From: Anaerolineae bacterium | GTDB lineage: Bacteria > Chloroflexota > Anaerolineae > JAAYZQ01 | Reading direction: 5' to 3' | Assembly (NCBI GenBank): GCA_016926595.1 | Contig: JAFGOG010000489.1 | Coordinates: 1 to 7,659, forward strand | DNA length: 7,659 nt | In this document: positions 1,861 to 7,659 of the stretch, one piece after another | Position numbering within the stretch: the first letter of the stretch is position 1 | Layout of the letters: each line of letters opens with the position of its first letter | Notes under the pieces: model-generated | What the model was told of the DNA's origin: nothing | Databases searched by the model: none | The model's input: only the letters and a program-made list of their open reading frames with translations | Program-made: the position numbers and the translations under genes

Positions 1861-2940
1861 ATGTTGGAGCTTTTGCCCAGGCTGCCTCTTTATGAGAGTT
1901 TTTACCATCTCGGCTGGCCGTACATGCTGCCGTTCAGCATTGTCGTCAGTGTCAGTTACCGCTGCAACAGCAGGTGCCAGACGTGCAACGTCTGGCAGCG
2001 CAGCAGTGAGGAGATGACAGCCGCCGAATGGCGCCAAGTCTTCGCCCACCTCGGCCGGGCGCCTTTTTACCTGACCTTCACCGGCGGCGAGCCTTTTCTG
2101 CGGGCCGATCTGCCTGAACTGGTCGCCGCCAGCGCCGAGCTGTGCCGGCCAAGCGTCATCACCATCCCCACAAATGGGCTGTTGACCGGGCGGATCGTCG
2201 ACTATACCGGGCAAATTTGCACTGCCGCGCCCTGGTCGCAGATCGGCCTCAACCTGTCGCTCGACGGGATTGGGCCGGAGCACGATGAGATCCGGGGCAT
2301 CCCCGGCAATTGGCGGCGGGCGATGGAGACGTGGCGGGGGCTCAAGGAACTGCAGGCCGCGCACAAGAACCTGGTGCTGAGCGTCCATACCGTTATCTCC
2401 CGCTTGAACGTGGGGCGCATACGCGACATTGTCGAAGGGTTGGCGTCCCTGGAGCCCGATTCCTACATCACCGAAGTGGCAGAAGAGCGGGTAGAGCTGG
2501 GGACGGTGGGCTGCCGGATCACACCCACCGCCGAGGAATATGCCCCCATCGCTGACTATCTCTCGACTCGGGCCGGGGCGGTGCCGGCAAAAGGGCTGGC
2601 CCGCTTTACCCAGGCCTTTCGCGCCCAGTACTACCAGCTTGCCAAGCGGATTCTGCAAGAGCACAGGCAGGTCATCCCCTGCCAGGCCGGCTGGGCCAGC
2701 GGTCACATCGCCCCAGACGGCGATGTGTGGACCTGCTGTGTCCGGGCCGAGCCCGTTGGCAATCTTCGCCAGGCCGGTTACGACCTGCGGCCCATCTGGT
2801 TCGAGCAGGCTGGCGACATCCGCCGGCTGCGGGCAAGCATTGCGGGCCGCGAGTGCGCCTGCCCTATGGCCAATGCCAGTTACGCCAACATGCTCCTCCA
2901 TCCACCTACCGTCGTGCGGGTCGCAGGGCAGATCTGGTGA
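1861..2940 (+). CDS. Radical SAM protein with C-terminal twitch/SPASM-like cysteine cluster
   Basis: This 359-residue enzyme belongs to the radical S-adenosylmethionine superfamily: a [4Fe-4S] cluster cleaves SAM to start radical chemistry. Cluster ligands are C35-x3-C39-x2-C42, followed by N-V-W as in PqqE/MoaA/NirJ-like enzymes; the SAM-contacting GGEP lies at 75-78, and IPTNG, NLSLDG and SVHTVIS segments mark later barrel strands. The C-terminal part has C274, then a Gx4PDG-type turn, C292-C293 and C332-x-C334, which suggests at least one auxiliary Fe-S cluster of the twitch/SPASM kind. The substrate is unknown; no small precursor peptide gene was seen beside it, which weakens a RiPP-maturase reading. 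The ATG at 1861 lacks a clear ribosome site, but a promoter just upstream would make a leaderless message. It stands divergent from the ZIP gene, and the next gene has its own promoter. Confidence 0.88.
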
Positions 2941-2961
2941 TTGCCCGTTCCTGTCAGGCAT

Positions 2962-2990
2962 TTGCCAAGCCCGCCAAACAATGGTATGAT
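2962..2990 (+). promoter_or_regulatory. Strong sigma70-type promoter ahead of the CrtC-like/BMC gene run
   Basis: TTGCCA (2962-2967; 5 of 6 to TTGACA) and TATGAT (2985-2990; 5 of 6 to TATAAT) are separated by exactly 17 bp, with TGG directly before the -10 box (extended -10). A start near 2997 gives a leader of about 23 bases holding the GGAG ribosome site at 3010-3013. Since the next five genes follow with gaps of 8 to 19 bases, this is the likely promoter of the whole run into the BMC genes. Confidence 0.7.
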
Positions 2991-3019
2991 ATCGTCAGAG
3001 GTGGGCAGCGGAGTAGTGT

Positions 3020-4138
3020 ATGGTCCGCAGACTGATCCTGGTATTCCTGACGCTGTTGCTGATACTGGCCGCCGGACTGATGACGGCCCTTTTCATTTTC
3101 CGCCATCCCACCCCGACTGAGTTCGAGCGGGCAACTGCCAGCCAGCCTGTCAGCTTGCCGCGCGACGAAGCGGCGCACTTTAACGTAACAACTGAATGGT
3201 GGTACTATACCGGCTTTATGACCGGTGCGGATGGCAAGTGCTACGGGTTCGAGCTCGTATTCTTCAAAGGGTTCGTGCCGCCGCAAGCCAAGATAGCGAA
3301 CGTCCTGCCGATCAACTGGGTCAGCAACCCGGTGTACGCGGCTCACTTTGCCATCAGCGATCTGGCAGCCGGCGACCATACCTTCTTTGAGCAGTCCAAC
3401 TTTCCGCAGTTCTGGAGCGCAAGCGCCAGGCAAGATCGGCACGCGGTGTGGAACGGCAAGTGGGGCACATGGGGTAGCGACGGGAAGCATTATCTGCAAG
3501 CGGCCGCCGGAAACTATGCCTTGTGGCTCAACCTGGATGCGGCCAAACCGGTCGTGCTGCATGGCCCGGGAGGCGCCGGCATTGTAGAGATGGGCCAGGC
3601 TGGCGCGTCATACTACTATTCCTACACCGACCTGCGAGGTGCGGGCCTGCTGACCATAGACGGGTTTCAGCAGACTGTAAATGCCACCGCCTGGATGGAC
3701 CATCAGTGGGGTAGCTGGGAGAACCATGAAGGCTTTGCCGGATGGGACTGGTTTAGCTTGCGGTTGGACGACGGCAGCCGGGCGATGTTGTTCAACTTCC
3801 GGGACCAGGACGGTCAGATTCAGCCCCAATCAAGTGGCACCTGGATCCACCCGGATGGGACAACCCACCACCTGCAAGCCGTCGATTTCGACGTACAGGT
3901 ACTCGCACAGTGGACCAGCGCCGAGACCGGTGCGACCTATCCGGTCAAATGGGCCGTGGCCGTGCCCGATTTCGGCCTGCGAGCAACCGTAGAGGCGACC
4001 TTTCCTGAACAGGAGATGGTCGTGCAGTTCACGCCCCTTTATTGGGAAGGAAGCGTGTCGGTGACTGGGACGACCAACGGCAGCGGGTTCGTCGAGATGA
4101 CCGGCTACGGGTCGGGACTCGGGCATTATAGCCGATAG
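3020..4138 (+). CDS. CrtC/AttH lipocalin-like domain protein, membrane-anchored
   Basis: This 372-residue protein resembles the carotenoid 1,2-hydratase (CrtC)/AttH family, a tandem lipocalin-like beta fold. Visible marks are E59-W-W-Y-Y-T-G, the GFELVFFK strand (around 76-83), W225-M-D-H-Q-W-G-S-W and G241-W-D-W-F-S-L-R-L-D-D-G. An N-terminal hydrophobic stretch (about 4-27) after two arginines is a signal anchor or uncleaved signal peptide; no lipobox cysteine is seen, so the bulk probably faces outside the cytoplasm. CrtC hydrates carotenoids such as neurosporene and lycopene, but many members of this wide family have unknown lipid-like substrates, and no carotenoid gene is nearby. The ATG has CGGAG 6 bases upstream. 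Its stop lies 8 bases before the PduS-like gene, so it appears to be in the same transcript as the BMC genes, an unexpected pairing. Confidence 0.82.
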   Translation: MVRRLILVFLTLLLILAAGLMTALFIFRHPTPTEFERATASQPVSLPRDEAAHFNVTTEWWYYTGFMTGADGKCYGFELVFFKGFVPPQAKIANVLPINWVSNPVYAAHFAISDLAAGDHTFFEQSNFPQFWSASARQDRHAVWNGKWGTWGSDGKHYLQAAAGNYALWLNLDAAKPVVLHGPGGAGIVEMGQAGASYYYSYTDLRGAGLLTIDGFQQTVNATAWMDHQWGSWENHEGFAGWDWFSLRLDDGSRAMLFNFRDQDGQIQPQSSGTWIHPDGTTHHLQAVDFDVQVLAQWTSAETGATYPVKWAVAVPDFGLRATVEATFPEQEMVVQFTPLYWEGSVSVTGTTNGSGFVEMTGYGSGLGHYSR

Positions 4139-4146
4139 GCCAGCGG

Positions 4147-5532
4147 ATGGGTCAAAATCTCATCGACGCAGTCAAGGCAGCCGGAGTGATCGGCGCAGGA
4201 GGGGCGGGTTTCCCCACCCACGTCAAGCTTGCCGCCCGGGTGGATACCGTCATCGCCAATGGCGCTGAATGCGATCCGCTGTTGCAGTGCGATCAGCGGT
4301 TGATGGAACGCCACGCCCTCAAGCTGGTGCGCGGACTGCAATTGGCCATGGCAGCCACCGGCGCGGAGCACGGCATCGTGGCCTTGAAAAAAGAATACAG
4401 TGAAGCCATAGCCGCTCTGCAGCGGGCCGTATCTTCGGCCCTCAAGGCCTCTGGCAGCCAGCCAGACTTGAGATTGCACCTGCTAGACAGCCGCTACCCT
4501 GCCGGCGATGAGTTTGTCTTGGTCTACGAGACGACGGGCCGGGTGGTGCCAGAAGCTGGGCTGCCGCTGCACGTCGGCTGTCTGGTTCAGAACGTGCAGA
4601 CGTTGTTCAACATCAATCGGGCCGCCGAAGGTCGCCCGGTGACCCACCGCCTGCTGACCGTGGCCGGAGCTGTGGCGCGGCCGGTCACGCTGTGGGTCCC
4701 CGTGGGCACGCCTATCCGCGATGTGCTGGCTTGGGCTGGTGGGATTCGGCCTGCCAATTGGTCACAGCGCACCGGGCAAGATTACGCCGTCGTAGCAGGC
4801 GGGCCGATGATGGGCCAGGTGCCTGAGGATCTTGACCAGCCCGTAACCAAGATGACCAGCGGGTTGTTGGTGTTGCCGCGCGACAACGCTGTCGTCCGCT
4901 ACCTGACCCGCTCGCGTAGATCGTGGGTCAGGCGAGGGATCTCGACCTGCGATCAGTGCCGGGACTGCACCGATCTGTGCCCTCGATACCTGCTGGGCCA
5001 TGACCTCAAGCCGCACGAGGTGATGCGGGCCATCAACTATGGGCTGGAACGACCGGCTGACAAGGTGACGGCAGCCATCCTGTGTTGCGAATGCCGGCTA
5101 TGTGAGGCCTATGCCTGCCCGCTGGAGCTGTCGCCGATGTCCTATTATGTCGCCATCAAAGAACAGCTCAGAGCGCAGGGTTGGAGGCCTGAAAGGCGGC
5201 AGGGTAATGACAACCCGGAACCCCATCCGATGCGTGATTGCCGGCTGGTGCCGACCCACCGGCTGATCGCCCGCTTGGGGTTGACGGAATGGGAAGATCA
5301 GGTTTGCCCATTGGATGAGACAGACTATTGCCCAGCGCGTGTGACGATACCGCTGCGCCACCCGCGTGGCATCGGCGTGCCCGCCGTGGCGGCTGTGGCT
5401 GTGGGCCAGAAGGTGGCAGTTGGCGCCCCGATCGCCCATGTCCCAGAGGGGAAACTGGGAGCGAACGTGCATGCCTCGATCGCCGGTCAGGTGTCACAGG
5501 TCGCTGAGGCGGCCATCGAGATAGTGTCTTGA
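4147..5532 (+). CDS. pduS: PduS-like BMC-associated flavin/iron-sulfur electron-transfer protein (RnfC/SLBB family)
   Basis: This 461-residue soluble protein is close to the usual PduS length. PduS moves electrons from NADH through flavin and two [4Fe-4S] clusters, in Salmonella and Citrobacter for cobalamin reduction. In order: a glycine-rich nucleotide/FMN motif GAGGAGFPTHVK (16-27) as in RnfC and NuoF; the Rossmann-like first domain with NGAECDP; an SLBB domain (about 165-215); the first cluster motif C268-x2-C271-x2-C274-x3-C278-P; a second, C313-x2-C316-x2-C319-x4-C324-P, with one extra residue in the last gap; and a C-terminal barrel-sandwich (biotinyl/lipoyl-like) segment (about 405-460). 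RnfC is an alternative, but no rnf membrane subunits follow and a PduT-like gene lies downstream. The start agrees with the family N-terminus although the ribosome site is weak. Whether cobalamin is the acceptor here is unknown. Confidence 0.88.
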   Translation: MGQNLIDAVKAAGVIGAGGAGFPTHVKLAARVDTVIANGAECDPLLQCDQRLMERHALKLVRGLQLAMAATGAEHGIVALKKEYSEAIAALQRAVSSALKASGSQPDLRLHLLDSRYPAGDEFVLVYETTGRVVPEAGLPLHVGCLVQNVQTLFNINRAAEGRPVTHRLLTVAGAVARPVTLWVPVGTPIRDVLAWAGGIRPANWSQRTGQDYAVVAGGPMMGQVPEDLDQPVTKMTSGLLVLPRDNAVVRYLTRSRRSWVRRGISTCDQCRDCTDLCPRYLLGHDLKPHEVMRAINYGLERPADKVTAAILCCECRLCEAYACPLELSPMSYYVAIKEQLRAQGWRPERRQGNDNPEPHPMRDCRLVPTHRLIARLGLTEWEDQVCPLDETDYCPARVTIPLRHPRGIGVPAVAAVAVGQKVAVGAPIAHVPEGKLGANVHASIAGQVSQVAEAAIEIVS

Positions 5533-5551: not shown

Positions 5552-6058
5552 ATGAGCAGCGTCCAATTTGGTCGAGTAGCCCAGGCCGATTTCTTTACCA
5601 CGACCCATCGGATATCGGGCCAGGTGCATACCGGCCCCAAGCCGCTCAGCGATATGCTCAACGATAGATCTCTGTCGTACATGATGGCGGTCAACGTCTA
5701 CGTGTCGCGGTTGATAGAACCAGGCGAGATCGTCGCCCATGTGCCGGTAGCCTATCTGTCGAAGGAGAACCTGAGCTTTGTCATCGTGGCAGCGCGAGAG
5801 GCGCGGCAAGCCGAACGGACTCGGTTTTCGGCCCAGGAATACAGGGCCCTCGTCACCCTGCCGGCGTTCGAGATCACAGGCAAGTTTCTGGGGCCGCTGC
5901 GGGTTGACATGCAGGTCTTTTCACCGGCCGGTCTCGATCCGTTCATAATCTTAACCGATGCCACAGCCCAGATCGTGACTCTGCCGGAAGTGACATTCTG
6001 TGGAGAGGTACTCCTGTTCAACGGGGCGCGGCTGGAGAGCTTTGGCCTGAGTGAGTAG
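5552..6058 (+). CDS. Uncharacterised 168-residue protein with two copies of a small beta-type domain
   Basis: I do not recognise a characterised family. The protein has no signal peptide, membrane helix or cysteine pair and reads as mostly beta strand. The first half (about 17-80) has T-H-R-I-S-G-Q-V-H-T-G, then L32-S-D-M-L-N-D38, and hydrophobic strands ending in an LSFVIVAA-type strand. The second half (about 105-166) restarts with F-E-I-T-G-K, then strands around PFIILTDATAQIV and a closing GEVLLFNGARLESF. The matching [RE]-I-[ST]-G-[QK] openings and strand order suggest an internal duplication. The style recalls small proteins of the type annotated DUF6812 (tentative, from memory). The ATG has AAGGCGGGG upstream. 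It lies 19 bases after the PduS-like gene and 9 before the REC-MinD-like gene, so it may be the partner or cargo adaptor of that protein. Confidence 0.8.
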   Translation: MSSVQFGRVAQADFFTTTHRISGQVHTGPKPLSDMLNDRSLSYMMAVNVYVSRLIEPGEIVAHVPVAYLSKENLSFVIVAAREARQAERTRFSAQEYRALVTLPAFEITGKFLGPLRVDMQVFSPAGLDPFIILTDATAQIVTLPEVTFCGEVLLFNGARLESFGLSE

Positions 6059-6067
6059 AGTAGAAAG

Positions 6068-7183
6068 ATGTCTAAAGCGTTAGTAATCGATGACGAAGCG
6101 CCATTGACAGCCTTGATTGGGCGCTTTCTGGAAAGCGCCGGTTTCAGCGTCGAGTCGGCGGCTTGTGGTGTGGAAGGGCTGCAAAAGGCAGCAGCGACTC
6201 GTCCTGATCTAGTCGTGCTGGACATCATGATGCCGGACATGGACGGCTATGAAGTGTGCCGGCGATTGCGCGCCGACCCGCGCACGGCGCGGGCTGCCAT
6301 CGTGGCCCTGACCGCGCGGACACAGCCGATCGACAAACAAATGGCACTCCGCGCCGGAGCTGACATGCACCTGGTCAAACCGTTTAGCGGCAAGGCTTTG
6401 GTAGAGACGGTTCAAGGACTACTGGCGGCCAGAGCTTTGAAGACACGTCCGCTGGGCTATCAGATCGCTGTGCTGCGTCTGAAACAGGGTGTAGGCGCCA
6501 CGATGCTCGCCGCCAACCTAGCTCTGGCGCTGACTGAAGAAAAGGGCCAGATGGTCACAGCCGTTGACCTGGCATTAAGTGGCGGCCAGATAGGCGGCAT
6601 GCTGGACTTGCAGGCCGAGCGGTCGTGGATCGAATCATGGCCGGGGGACGAAGGGGTAGACGGACTGGTGCCCCACTTGCTCCGGCACAGCAGCGGGCTG
6701 TTCGCCTTGCCGGCCCCCGCATTGCCGCCAGGCATGGCTCTCCCAGAGACGTGGAGAGTAGCCAGGCTGCTACAGATAGTGCGGGGTTGGTCCGATTACG
6801 CGGTCCTAGATACACCGGTTGCCCTGGGCAACCTGGCGCCCATTCTGCTCGAGTCTTCGTCGCTGGTCCTGTTGCTGTTAAGCCCGGACGAGTCGATGCG
6901 AGCGGTTCAGGCTACTCTGGCTGCCATCAAAAAGAGCGCGGCCGAGACGTTAAAAGTCTTGCCGGTCTTGAATGAAGCACCCGCTGAGCAAAAGCCGTCC
7001 CGCTTGACGGAAATCCAGACCAAAGAGCGGATAGAGCAGGTCTTGGGGCTCCCAGTGGCAGTTGTGCTCCCCTGGTCCCTGGGCCAGCAGCCGGTGATGG
7101 TGAGCCGGCCCGAGTCGTCGTTGGCAGTGGCCATCCGGGCCTTGGCACAGCAGGTAGCTGGCTTGGCTACCGGATCTGCGTAA
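6068..7183 (+). CDS. Response-regulator receiver domain fused to a degenerate MinD/ParA (CpaE-like) domain
   Basis: Residues 3-120 form a receiver (REC) domain with the full phosphorylation set: acidic D8-D9, phosphoacceptor D52 (LVVLD-I-MMPDMDG), T82 and K104-P-F. Residues about 130-367 form a MinD/ParA/CpaE-like P-loop domain. Its deviant Walker A is K139-Q-G-V-G-A144-T145: the signature lysine at the start is kept, but the P-loop lysine before threonine is alanine. Walker B-like Y-A-V-L-D248-T-P and the downstream LVLLLLSPDE strand are present. REC plus MinD is the architecture of CpaE/TadZ, which places Tad pili at the pole, and changes in the P-loop lysine also occur in CpaE proteins. 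No pilus genes are in view; it lies between the PduS- and PduT-like genes, suggesting BMC placement or regulation (inference). There is no DNA-binding output domain. The ribosome site (AGAAAG) is weak. Confidence 0.87.
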   Translation: MSKALVIDDEAPLTALIGRFLESAGFSVESAACGVEGLQKAAATRPDLVVLDIMMPDMDGYEVCRRLRADPRTARAAIVALTARTQPIDKQMALRAGADMHLVKPFSGKALVETVQGLLAARALKTRPLGYQIAVLRLKQGVGATMLAANLALALTEEKGQMVTAVDLALSGGQIGGMLDLQAERSWIESWPGDEGVDGLVPHLLRHSSGLFALPAPALPPGMALPETWRVARLLQIVRGWSDYAVLDTPVALGNLAPILLESSSLVLLLLSPDESMRAVQATLAAIKKSAAETLKVLPVLNEAPAEQKPSRLTEIQTKERIEQVLGLPVAVVLPWSLGQQPVMVSRPESSLAVAIRALAQQVAGLATGSA

Positions 7184-7198
7184 AAGATCGAGGAGAAG

Positions 7199-7659
7199 AT
7201 GCTCGAGCCCGCGCTGGCCCTGATCGAGACGAATAGCATCGCCGCCGGCATCCTGACCGGCGATGCGATGGTGAAAAAGGCGGTCGTGCAACTGCTAGAG
7301 GCCCGTCCTGTGTGTCCGGGCAAGTATATCGTGGTCATAGCCGGAGAGGTGGAGCCGGTGCGCGAGTCGTGGCAGGTTGGAACAGCCACCGCGGCCGATG
7401 CATTGGTGGACCAGTTGCTTCTGCCAAATATCCACCGGTCGGTGTTCCCGGCGCTGATGAGCGCGACGCCGCCACGCCACGACGAAGCCTTGGGCATCAT
7501 CGAGACAGTGACGGCGGCCATCTGCATCGTCGCCGCCGATGCGGCGGCAAAAGCGGCAGGCATCCAGCTGCTGGAGATCCGCCTGGCCAATGGCCTGGGC
7601 GGCAAAAGCTATGTGTTAATGGAAGGCACTGTAGCTGACGTCGAAGCTGCGGTAGCCGC
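7199..7659 (+). CDS. pduT: PduT-like BMC-T shell protein with Fe-S pore cysteine, 3' end cut by window
   Basis: The first 153 codons of a trimeric, two-BMC-domain shell protein are present. Domain one (about 4-90) opens with A-L-A-L-I-E-T-N-S-I and has GDAMVKKA; domain two (from about 96) opens with E-A-L-G-I-I-E-T and has AADAAAKAAG and GLGGKSYVLMEG. It reads along the whole visible length like PduT, which is about 184 residues, so roughly 30 residues are missing. C39 in V-C-P-G-K-Y corresponds to the cysteine (Cys38) through which three PduT subunits hold a [4Fe-4S] cluster in the central pore; this is known for the Citrobacter and Salmonella proteins. A partner role with the PduS-like protein, carrying electrons across the shell, follows from that pairing. 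The ATG at 7199 has AGGAG only 3 bases upstream and lies 15 bases after the REC-MinD gene. Confidence 0.93.
   Translation, partial: MLEPALALIETNSIAAGILTGDAMVKKAVVQLLEARPVCPGKYIVVIAGEVEPVRESWQVGTATAADALVDQLLLPNIHRSVFPALMSATPPRHDEALGIIETVTAAICIVAADAAAKAAGIQLLEIRLANGLGGKSYVLMEGTVADVEAAVA

Follow-up and report, generated by a model that had tools for sequence, protein, structure and literature searches.

What a protein that joins a two-component receiver domain to a MinD/ParA-fold domain may be doing among bacterial microcompartment (BMC) genes is the question raised by a 7,659-nucleotide stretch of Anaerolineae DNA (contig JAFGOG010000489.1 of assembly GCA_016926595.1), hereafter called the window, in which such a protein, REC-MinD, is encoded between PduS- and PduT-like genes. 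A sequence-only reading of this DNA had taken it for a signal-controlled factor that positions microcompartments. The receiver-MinD fusion between the two genes is real, and residues D8, D9, D52, T82 and K104, on which that reading relied, are all present. It was also correct in placing REC-MinD within the PduS-PduT space, but it did not mention a second occupant of that space, a 168-aa protein here called O168. The coordinates are given in Table 1.

Table 1. Features of the PduS-PduT region of the window (positions are those of the window)
Feature	Position	Strand	Match or remark
PduS/RnfC-like flavin and iron-sulfur oxidoreductase	4147..5532	+	Complex1_51K 3.5e-47, Fer4_17, SLBB, RnfC_N
O168, 168-aa partner protein	5552..6058	+	
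REC-MinD protein, 371 aa	6068..7183	+	
Receiver domain, residues 1-124	6068..6439	+	PF00072 1.6e-26
Phospho-acceptor D52 codon	6221-6223	+	
MinD/ParA-fold domain, residues 127-371	6446..7180	+	ends without the tail of tad CpaE
Degenerate Walker A KQGVGATM, residues 139-146	6482..6505	+	P-loop Lys replaced by Ala
GAGGAG ahead of PduT, ribosome-binding-like	7190..7195	+	inside the 15-nt gap after REC-MinD; by sequence reading
PduT-like double-BMC-domain shell protein	7199..7657	+	PF00936 2.4e-34, two stretches; gene cut by window end

PduS, O168, REC-MinD and PduT form a tight row, with intergenic gaps of 19, 9 and 15 nt. The first matches TIGR01945 (rnfC) at 248.5 bits against a cut-off of 245.95, and the last matches TIGR02526 with an E value of 9.1e-30, under the cut-off of that model. 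Upstream of PduS (1861-4138), the plus strand also carries a radical SAM/SPASM gene and a CrtC/lipocalin gene, the latter ending 8 nt before PduS, and a relative of the radical SAM gene likewise precedes PduS at another locus, L121; on the minus strand lie a metallo-beta-lactamase-fold gene and a ZIP transporter gene. Domain matches found no tad genes among the eight genes of the window, which also contains no kinase.

The order of the domains in REC-MinD, a receiver followed by a MinD/ParA fold, is that of CpaE/TadZ, and the receiver has the acidic pair, the acceptor Asp, the Thr/Ser and the Lys of its family. In a protein search, the 7994 candidates sharing most words were scored and the best 120 were listed; the window protein and 72 relatives with an identity of at least 45% make up P0001-P0073, and among the matches listed beneath P0073 the identity is at most 38%, save for the partial P0074 and P0080 and receiver-only matches. 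When 72 of the 73 close sequences, the window included, were aligned (the partial P0066 was omitted), D8, D9, D52 and K104 were found to be invariant in all 72. The P-loop Lys is absent from all 72 as well, and from 73 of 78 wider relatives, the other five having kept it. At the signature Lys position of KGG, the window and 42 of the 72 close sequences have Lys, and 69 of the 78 wider ones have Arg. A scan of genome contigs gave only distant relatives among the matches listed; as tblastn at E 1e-3 detected no other window gene at these 80 loci, the matches probably represent REC-MinD paralogues of another kind. For the MinD half, computed isoelectric points have a median of 5.8 in the window family and of 9.25 in the wider loci, where they were derived from stop-to-stop frames.

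Residues 7-90 of O168 are weakly Sm-like in a predicted model, the remainder being without an Sm-like match; the protein also matches DUF6812 weakly, under the cut-off of that family, of which our literature search found no mention, and an internal duplication has no sequence support (hhalign E 0.37). A protein search gave 67 relatives, and wherever the sources name a taxon for relatives of REC-MinD or O168, it is Anaerolineae or Chloroflexota. We sought O168 in 396 genomes of one class, the Anaerolineae, and obtained 139 matches in 135 of them; in a sample of the phylum it was detected in 29 of 400 genomes at E 1e-15, 27 of which were already in the class list. The loci of the best 100 of the 139 matches, one per genome, were then fetched, genes being called in them as greedy ORFs and cluster HMMs being built from the same loci. 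REC-MinD adjoins O168 in 78 of these 100 loci, adjacency being defined by a REC-MinD model score of at least 180, the same strand and a stop-to-stop frame gap of -700 to 1000 nt, while 22 have no adjacent REC-MinD at this score threshold. No fusion of the two proteins occurs in the 100 loci or the window. At L121, a BMC locus of genome G030, the order is PduS-O168-PduT with no REC-MinD between; because O168 is kept there beside PduT without its partner, it may serve a separate function in BMC operons of this sort. Searches of G030 and nine other genomes with the MinD half gave only matches of 27-38%. The family and the order of G030 gave two genomes each and the order of G092 gave two, and neither these nor the sample of the phylum reached the lineage of the window. 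O168-like genes without REC-MinD also occur at L135, L138 and L159, near an NAD-dependent DNA ligase and an ABC transporter, these neighbours being identified by domain scan in L135 and by cluster membership in L138 and L159.

The gene order of the window had been compared with that of the pdu operon. The BMC neighbourhood stands, but not the operon type, as the relatives carry DeoC, RpiB and aldehyde dehydrogenase (ALDH) and resemble sugar-phosphate (SPU) rather than pdu operons. DeoC (pfam01791) and RpiB (pfam02502) are described as enzymes common to SPU compartments, and SPU6 BMCs have been reported for the class Anaerolineae, in the available parts of PMC8217296; DeoC, RpiB, aldehyde dehydrogenase and shell proteins are features that the SPU6 BMC described there shares with the operon hosting the pair of O168 and REC-MinD. 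The main text of that paper does not contain the term 'response regulator', and its available parts make no mention of the pair. Judging from enzyme content, the local operon type appears to be SPU6-like; the window itself, which ends inside PduT, shows none of the three enzymes. The fullest order, from which individual loci vary, is LepB–RpiB–DeoC–YgiT-like–BMC-T-like–BMC-H–BMC-P–(NTase)–ALDH–O168–REC-MinD–PduT–BMC-P–BMC-P–class II aldolase, and in L125 and L129 PduS stands directly ahead of O168, as in the window. Altogether, the slot between ALDH or PduS and PduT holds the pair in 14 loci and the window. The labels LepB, RpiB, DeoC, NTase, ALDH, class II aldolase, BMC-H and BMC-P, as well as PdxS and methylpurine-DNA glycosylase below, were checked against Pfam in one or two members each, and the neighbour labelled YgiT-like has no Pfam match. 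The label BMC-T-like is uncertain, a BMC domain scoring under the cut-off in L134 and L125 and giving no match in L126 and L201, and none of the 21 loci with shell genes described below depends on that cluster alone.

SPU operons also exist without the pair, with ALDH running straight into PduT. We have inspected 60 BMC-centred loci, 40 from genomes without an O168 match and 20 from genomes with O168 elsewhere; O168 is absent from all 60 by two O168 models, an absence of the pair that holds by construction and shows only that the slot exists empty. The ALDH-PduT slot can be measured in 16 of the 60, of which 11 have a gap of at most 72 nt, L231 has PduS in it, and in four it spans 637-2434 nt and contains other ORFs; that of L279 is not measurable. 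Many shell-free loci retain the order LepB–(DeoC)–YgiT-like–(NTase)–O168–REC-MinD. Elsewhere the pair follows PdxS (SOR/SNZ), or it follows a LysM protein and is itself followed by a methylpurine-DNA glycosylase.

How closely the pair is tied to BMC genes can be judged from the 78 pair loci. Shell genes are present in the fetched stretch of 21 of them; for another 11 the genome has BMC genes at some other place, and for the remaining 46 it gives no PF00936 match. Of the 21, 16 include a BMC-H or PduT-like gene, while the other five (L141, L143, L144, L147 and L158) have BMC-P genes but neither of those two, the genome of L147 having no PF00936 match at all despite the BMC-P genes at the locus. 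The neighbourhood is therefore recurrent and not, as the sequence-only reading had allowed, the peculiarity of one genome, an explanation that we have discarded. Where the genome of a pair locus has a PF00936 match (31 loci), shell genes lie beside the pair in 20 cases, a proportion that random placement would hardly explain, with the reservation that relatedness makes the genomes non-independent. On the other hand, the enrichment that had been expected at the level of whole genomes is not found: PF00936 was found in 135 of the 396 genomes of the class, the same number as O168, and 46 have both, giving an odds ratio of 1.0, the chance value. A factor confined to BMCs is ruled out by this chance co-occurrence and by the 46 loci in PF00936-free genomes, 24 of which have more than 4 kb of flank on either side, although a lack of shell genes at a locus depends on how far its contig extends, and absence is weak evidence where, as here, many genomes are incomplete. 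The pair is thus hosted by BMC operons recurrently, not obligately, and is neither a tad-pilus gene nor strictly a BMC gene. In a tree of 93 rows, a quick SH-aLRT tree without bootstrap, the BMC-linked REC-MinD proteins are scattered, the BMC labels needing 13 changes against a shuffled mean of 19.3, and so the compartment genes around the pair have been gained or lost repeatedly.

The clade of the window itself was approached through contigs shared between the lists of relatives (73 for REC-MinD, 67 for O168 and 119 of the 120 listed for PduT), a shared contig being inferred from equal size of the longest contig of each cluster. REC-MinD and PduT gave 12 such coincidences (shift control: mean 0.7, maximum 4), REC-MinD and O168 gave 11 (mean 0.4, maximum 3), O168 and PduT gave seven (mean 1.2, maximum 4), and five contigs were common to all three lists. 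These coincidences suggest that in this clade the pair stays beside PduT, i.e. that it is BMC-linked; this is the sole context that can be inferred there, and it fits a BMC role and speaks against the BMC-independent reading favoured below. In G030 the SPU set is split, PduS-O168-PduT-BMC-P-BMC-P-aldolase lying at L121 on contig C14 and LepB-RpiB-DeoC-shell-ALDH at L241 on contig C4, and the window may be the second half of a set split in this way. It is conceivable, though we hold it to be doubtful, that the clade of the window has the pair as a fixed component of a split SPU6-type operon, and that compartment number or placement is set there on a kinase signal by a MinD-like dimer, receiver-gated and non-cycling, together with an Sm-like adaptor; if true, a pseudo-ATPase would be exerting two-component control over an organelle.

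As the architecture is that of CpaE/TadZ, we have also compared the pair with Tad-pilus loci. T2SSF genes were found in 34 of 36 pair genomes tested (36 of the 78 were searched), but never on the contig of the pair, except in G268 and G027, where they are more than 600 kb away; a confinement of the homologues to tad/cpa loci, which would have spoken against the sequence-only reading, thus did not come true in these 36 genomes. Of 20 T2SSF loci fetched from 19 pair genomes, 16 encode a CpaE-like protein of their own with a strong match to the MinD half, 15 of the 16 with a receiver match as well, the receiver being degenerate in L318. The tree comparison with CpaE which that reading had suggested shows the pair proteins as a clade apart: a branch with an SH-aLRT value of 100 splits the 16 tad-locus CpaE from 40 pair and window-family rows, in a quick search without bootstrap, rooted at the midpoint, for which 25 of the 78 pair loci and 14 relatives were hand-picked. 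Identity with the CpaE of a tad locus is accordingly rejected on the distance of T2SSF, the tad loci's own CpaE and the separate clade. The C-terminal tail is 0-11 aa long in the 40 rows, compared with 16-36 aa in the 16 tad CpaE, these being comparisons of length. The tad CpaE have intact receiver residues in 15 of 16 cases and likewise lack the P-loop Lys in 15 of 16; because they share both features, the intact receiver and the lost Lys of the pair protein reflect common ancestry with tad CpaE and are not evidence of a new activity. A Foldseek search with the predicted REC-MinD model placed 3fkq of E. rectale, whose entry title is NtrC-like two-domain protein and which we take to be the TadZ of that species, at rank 15 (E 1.4e-9); the entry is not among the 50 listed in the VIA structure comparison. 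According to PMC13170226, the receiver domain of E. rectale TadZ is atypical and the protein has a deviant Walker A with which it can bind ATP for dimerisation, while the C-terminal tail of C. crescentus CpaE is an amphipathic helix. The pair protein thus resembles CpaE/TadZ in its receiver and MinD/ParA fold, its variant Walker A and its sequence kinship, and differs in lying outside tad loci, in its separate clade, in lacking the tail and in having O168 as a partner.

Taken together, these results lead us to favour, as a fairly probable reading, that REC-MinD is a soluble receiver-gated paralogue of CpaE/TadZ working with O168 as a BMC-independent, two-gene output module of two-component systems in the Anaerolineae. 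A histidine kinase would phosphorylate D52, and this could alter the pairing of the receivers and hence that of the MinD-like halves. Because these halves keep the fold and the key acidic residues but not the P-loop Lys, they probably form a nucleotide-bound or pseudo-ATPase dimer and not a cycling motor, with low or no ATP turnover and presumably in the cytosol; the dimer might bind or release O168, which would relay the signal. As SPU6-like operons repeatedly carry the pair between ALDH or PduS and PduT, the pair of the window probably shares its expression with shell genes and may modulate the operon or the compartment, though the pair itself does not seem to need a compartment. An effect on the compartment would go further if, extending the sequence-only reading, phosphorylated REC-MinD positioned SPU compartments or controlled their copy number with O168 as shell adaptor. 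In favour of this, 21 of the 78 pair loci have shell genes, as do 20 of the 31 in PF00936 genomes, the slot recurs, and REC-MinD and PduT show the contig coincidences. Other bacteria with BMCs are reported to possess McdB-like proteins (PMC8262871), and putative McdAB systems are reported from several BMC operons (PMC12866334). McdA resembles the pair protein in its ParA/MinD fold and its encoding near BMC genes, but the pair protein has a receiver, lacks the P-loop Lys, and is found at 46 of 78 loci in genomes without a BMC match; the receiver and the missing Lys also set it apart from MinD, FleN/FlhG and Soj. Type 1 beta-McdA lacks the signature Lys, according to the same part of PMC8262871, which is a residue other than the P-loop Lys. 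Domain matches over the eight genes of the window did not reveal an McdB-like one. The PF00936-free loci, the SPU operons without the pair, the odds ratio, the lost P-loop Lys and the lack of a CpaE-like tail weigh against a dedicated positioning role, and in Salmonella parA and minD mutants the Pdu compartments are described as looking unchanged (PMC12866334, in part), so that a ParA-type positioner would be no general need. We therefore regard this role as unlikely.

A pilus role, with REC-MinD acting in Tad assembly though encoded off the tad locus, appears more remote still. It could draw on the common architecture, on the loss of the P-loop Lys in most tad CpaE and on automated names such as 'pilus assembly protein CpaE' carried by several relatives, but T2SSF lies away from the pair in 34 of 36 genomes, the tad loci mostly have their own CpaE in a clade of its own, and the tail is missing. 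Nor do we expect that the pair is a mere passenger, a housekeeping response module having promoters in common with its neighbours but no functional tie to them, an improbable account to which the varied contexts (PdxS, the LysM protein with methylpurine-DNA glycosylase, LepB) and the chance co-occurrence with BMC lend some weight; the same SPU slot is occupied in several separate clades of the tree, and the pair lies mostly at the BMC locus where a genome has both.

The data define a conserved REC-MinD and O168 pair apart from Tad pili, in which the phospho-switch is kept and the P-loop Lys and the CpaE tail are mostly lost. Should the pair be functional, it would represent a two-component output acting possibly via protein contacts and not via DNA binding or catalysis. 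Our literature search found nothing joining microcompartment, MinD-like and receiver domain. Kinases were counted in the scanned loci only: a GAF-PAS histidine kinase gene immediately precedes O168 in L130 and L132, one is found between BMC-P and ALDH in L134, and in L164 two HisKA/HATPase proteins are encoded upstream of O168. Furthermore, a receiver–class III (adenylate/guanylate) cyclase is encoded between BMC-P and ALDH in the SPU operons of L125 (1965-3011), L243 (7695-8774) and L270 (11181-12323), the genome of L270 having no O168 match. The repeated lodging of the pair in SPU6-like operons, some of them with histidine kinases or receiver-cyclases, makes signal control of a metabolosome testable, with BMC-free genomes that carry the pair as a natural control.

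The shell loci and the shell-free loci were also compared for DeoC. At shell loci (L193, L201, L126 and others) it has a median length of 295 aa (n=46, range 141-527 by first Met), and 11 of 12 printed starts have a helix-like N-terminal extension that resembles an encapsulation peptide. In 17 shell-free loci (L180, L181, L163, L161 and others), ten DeoC are 217-252 aa long without the extension, five are 312-320 aa long and of another type, and two are outliers. A ClpB-like AAA protein is encoded upstream of PduS in L125 (5280-7538), and a gene of the same cluster stands upstream of PduS in L129.
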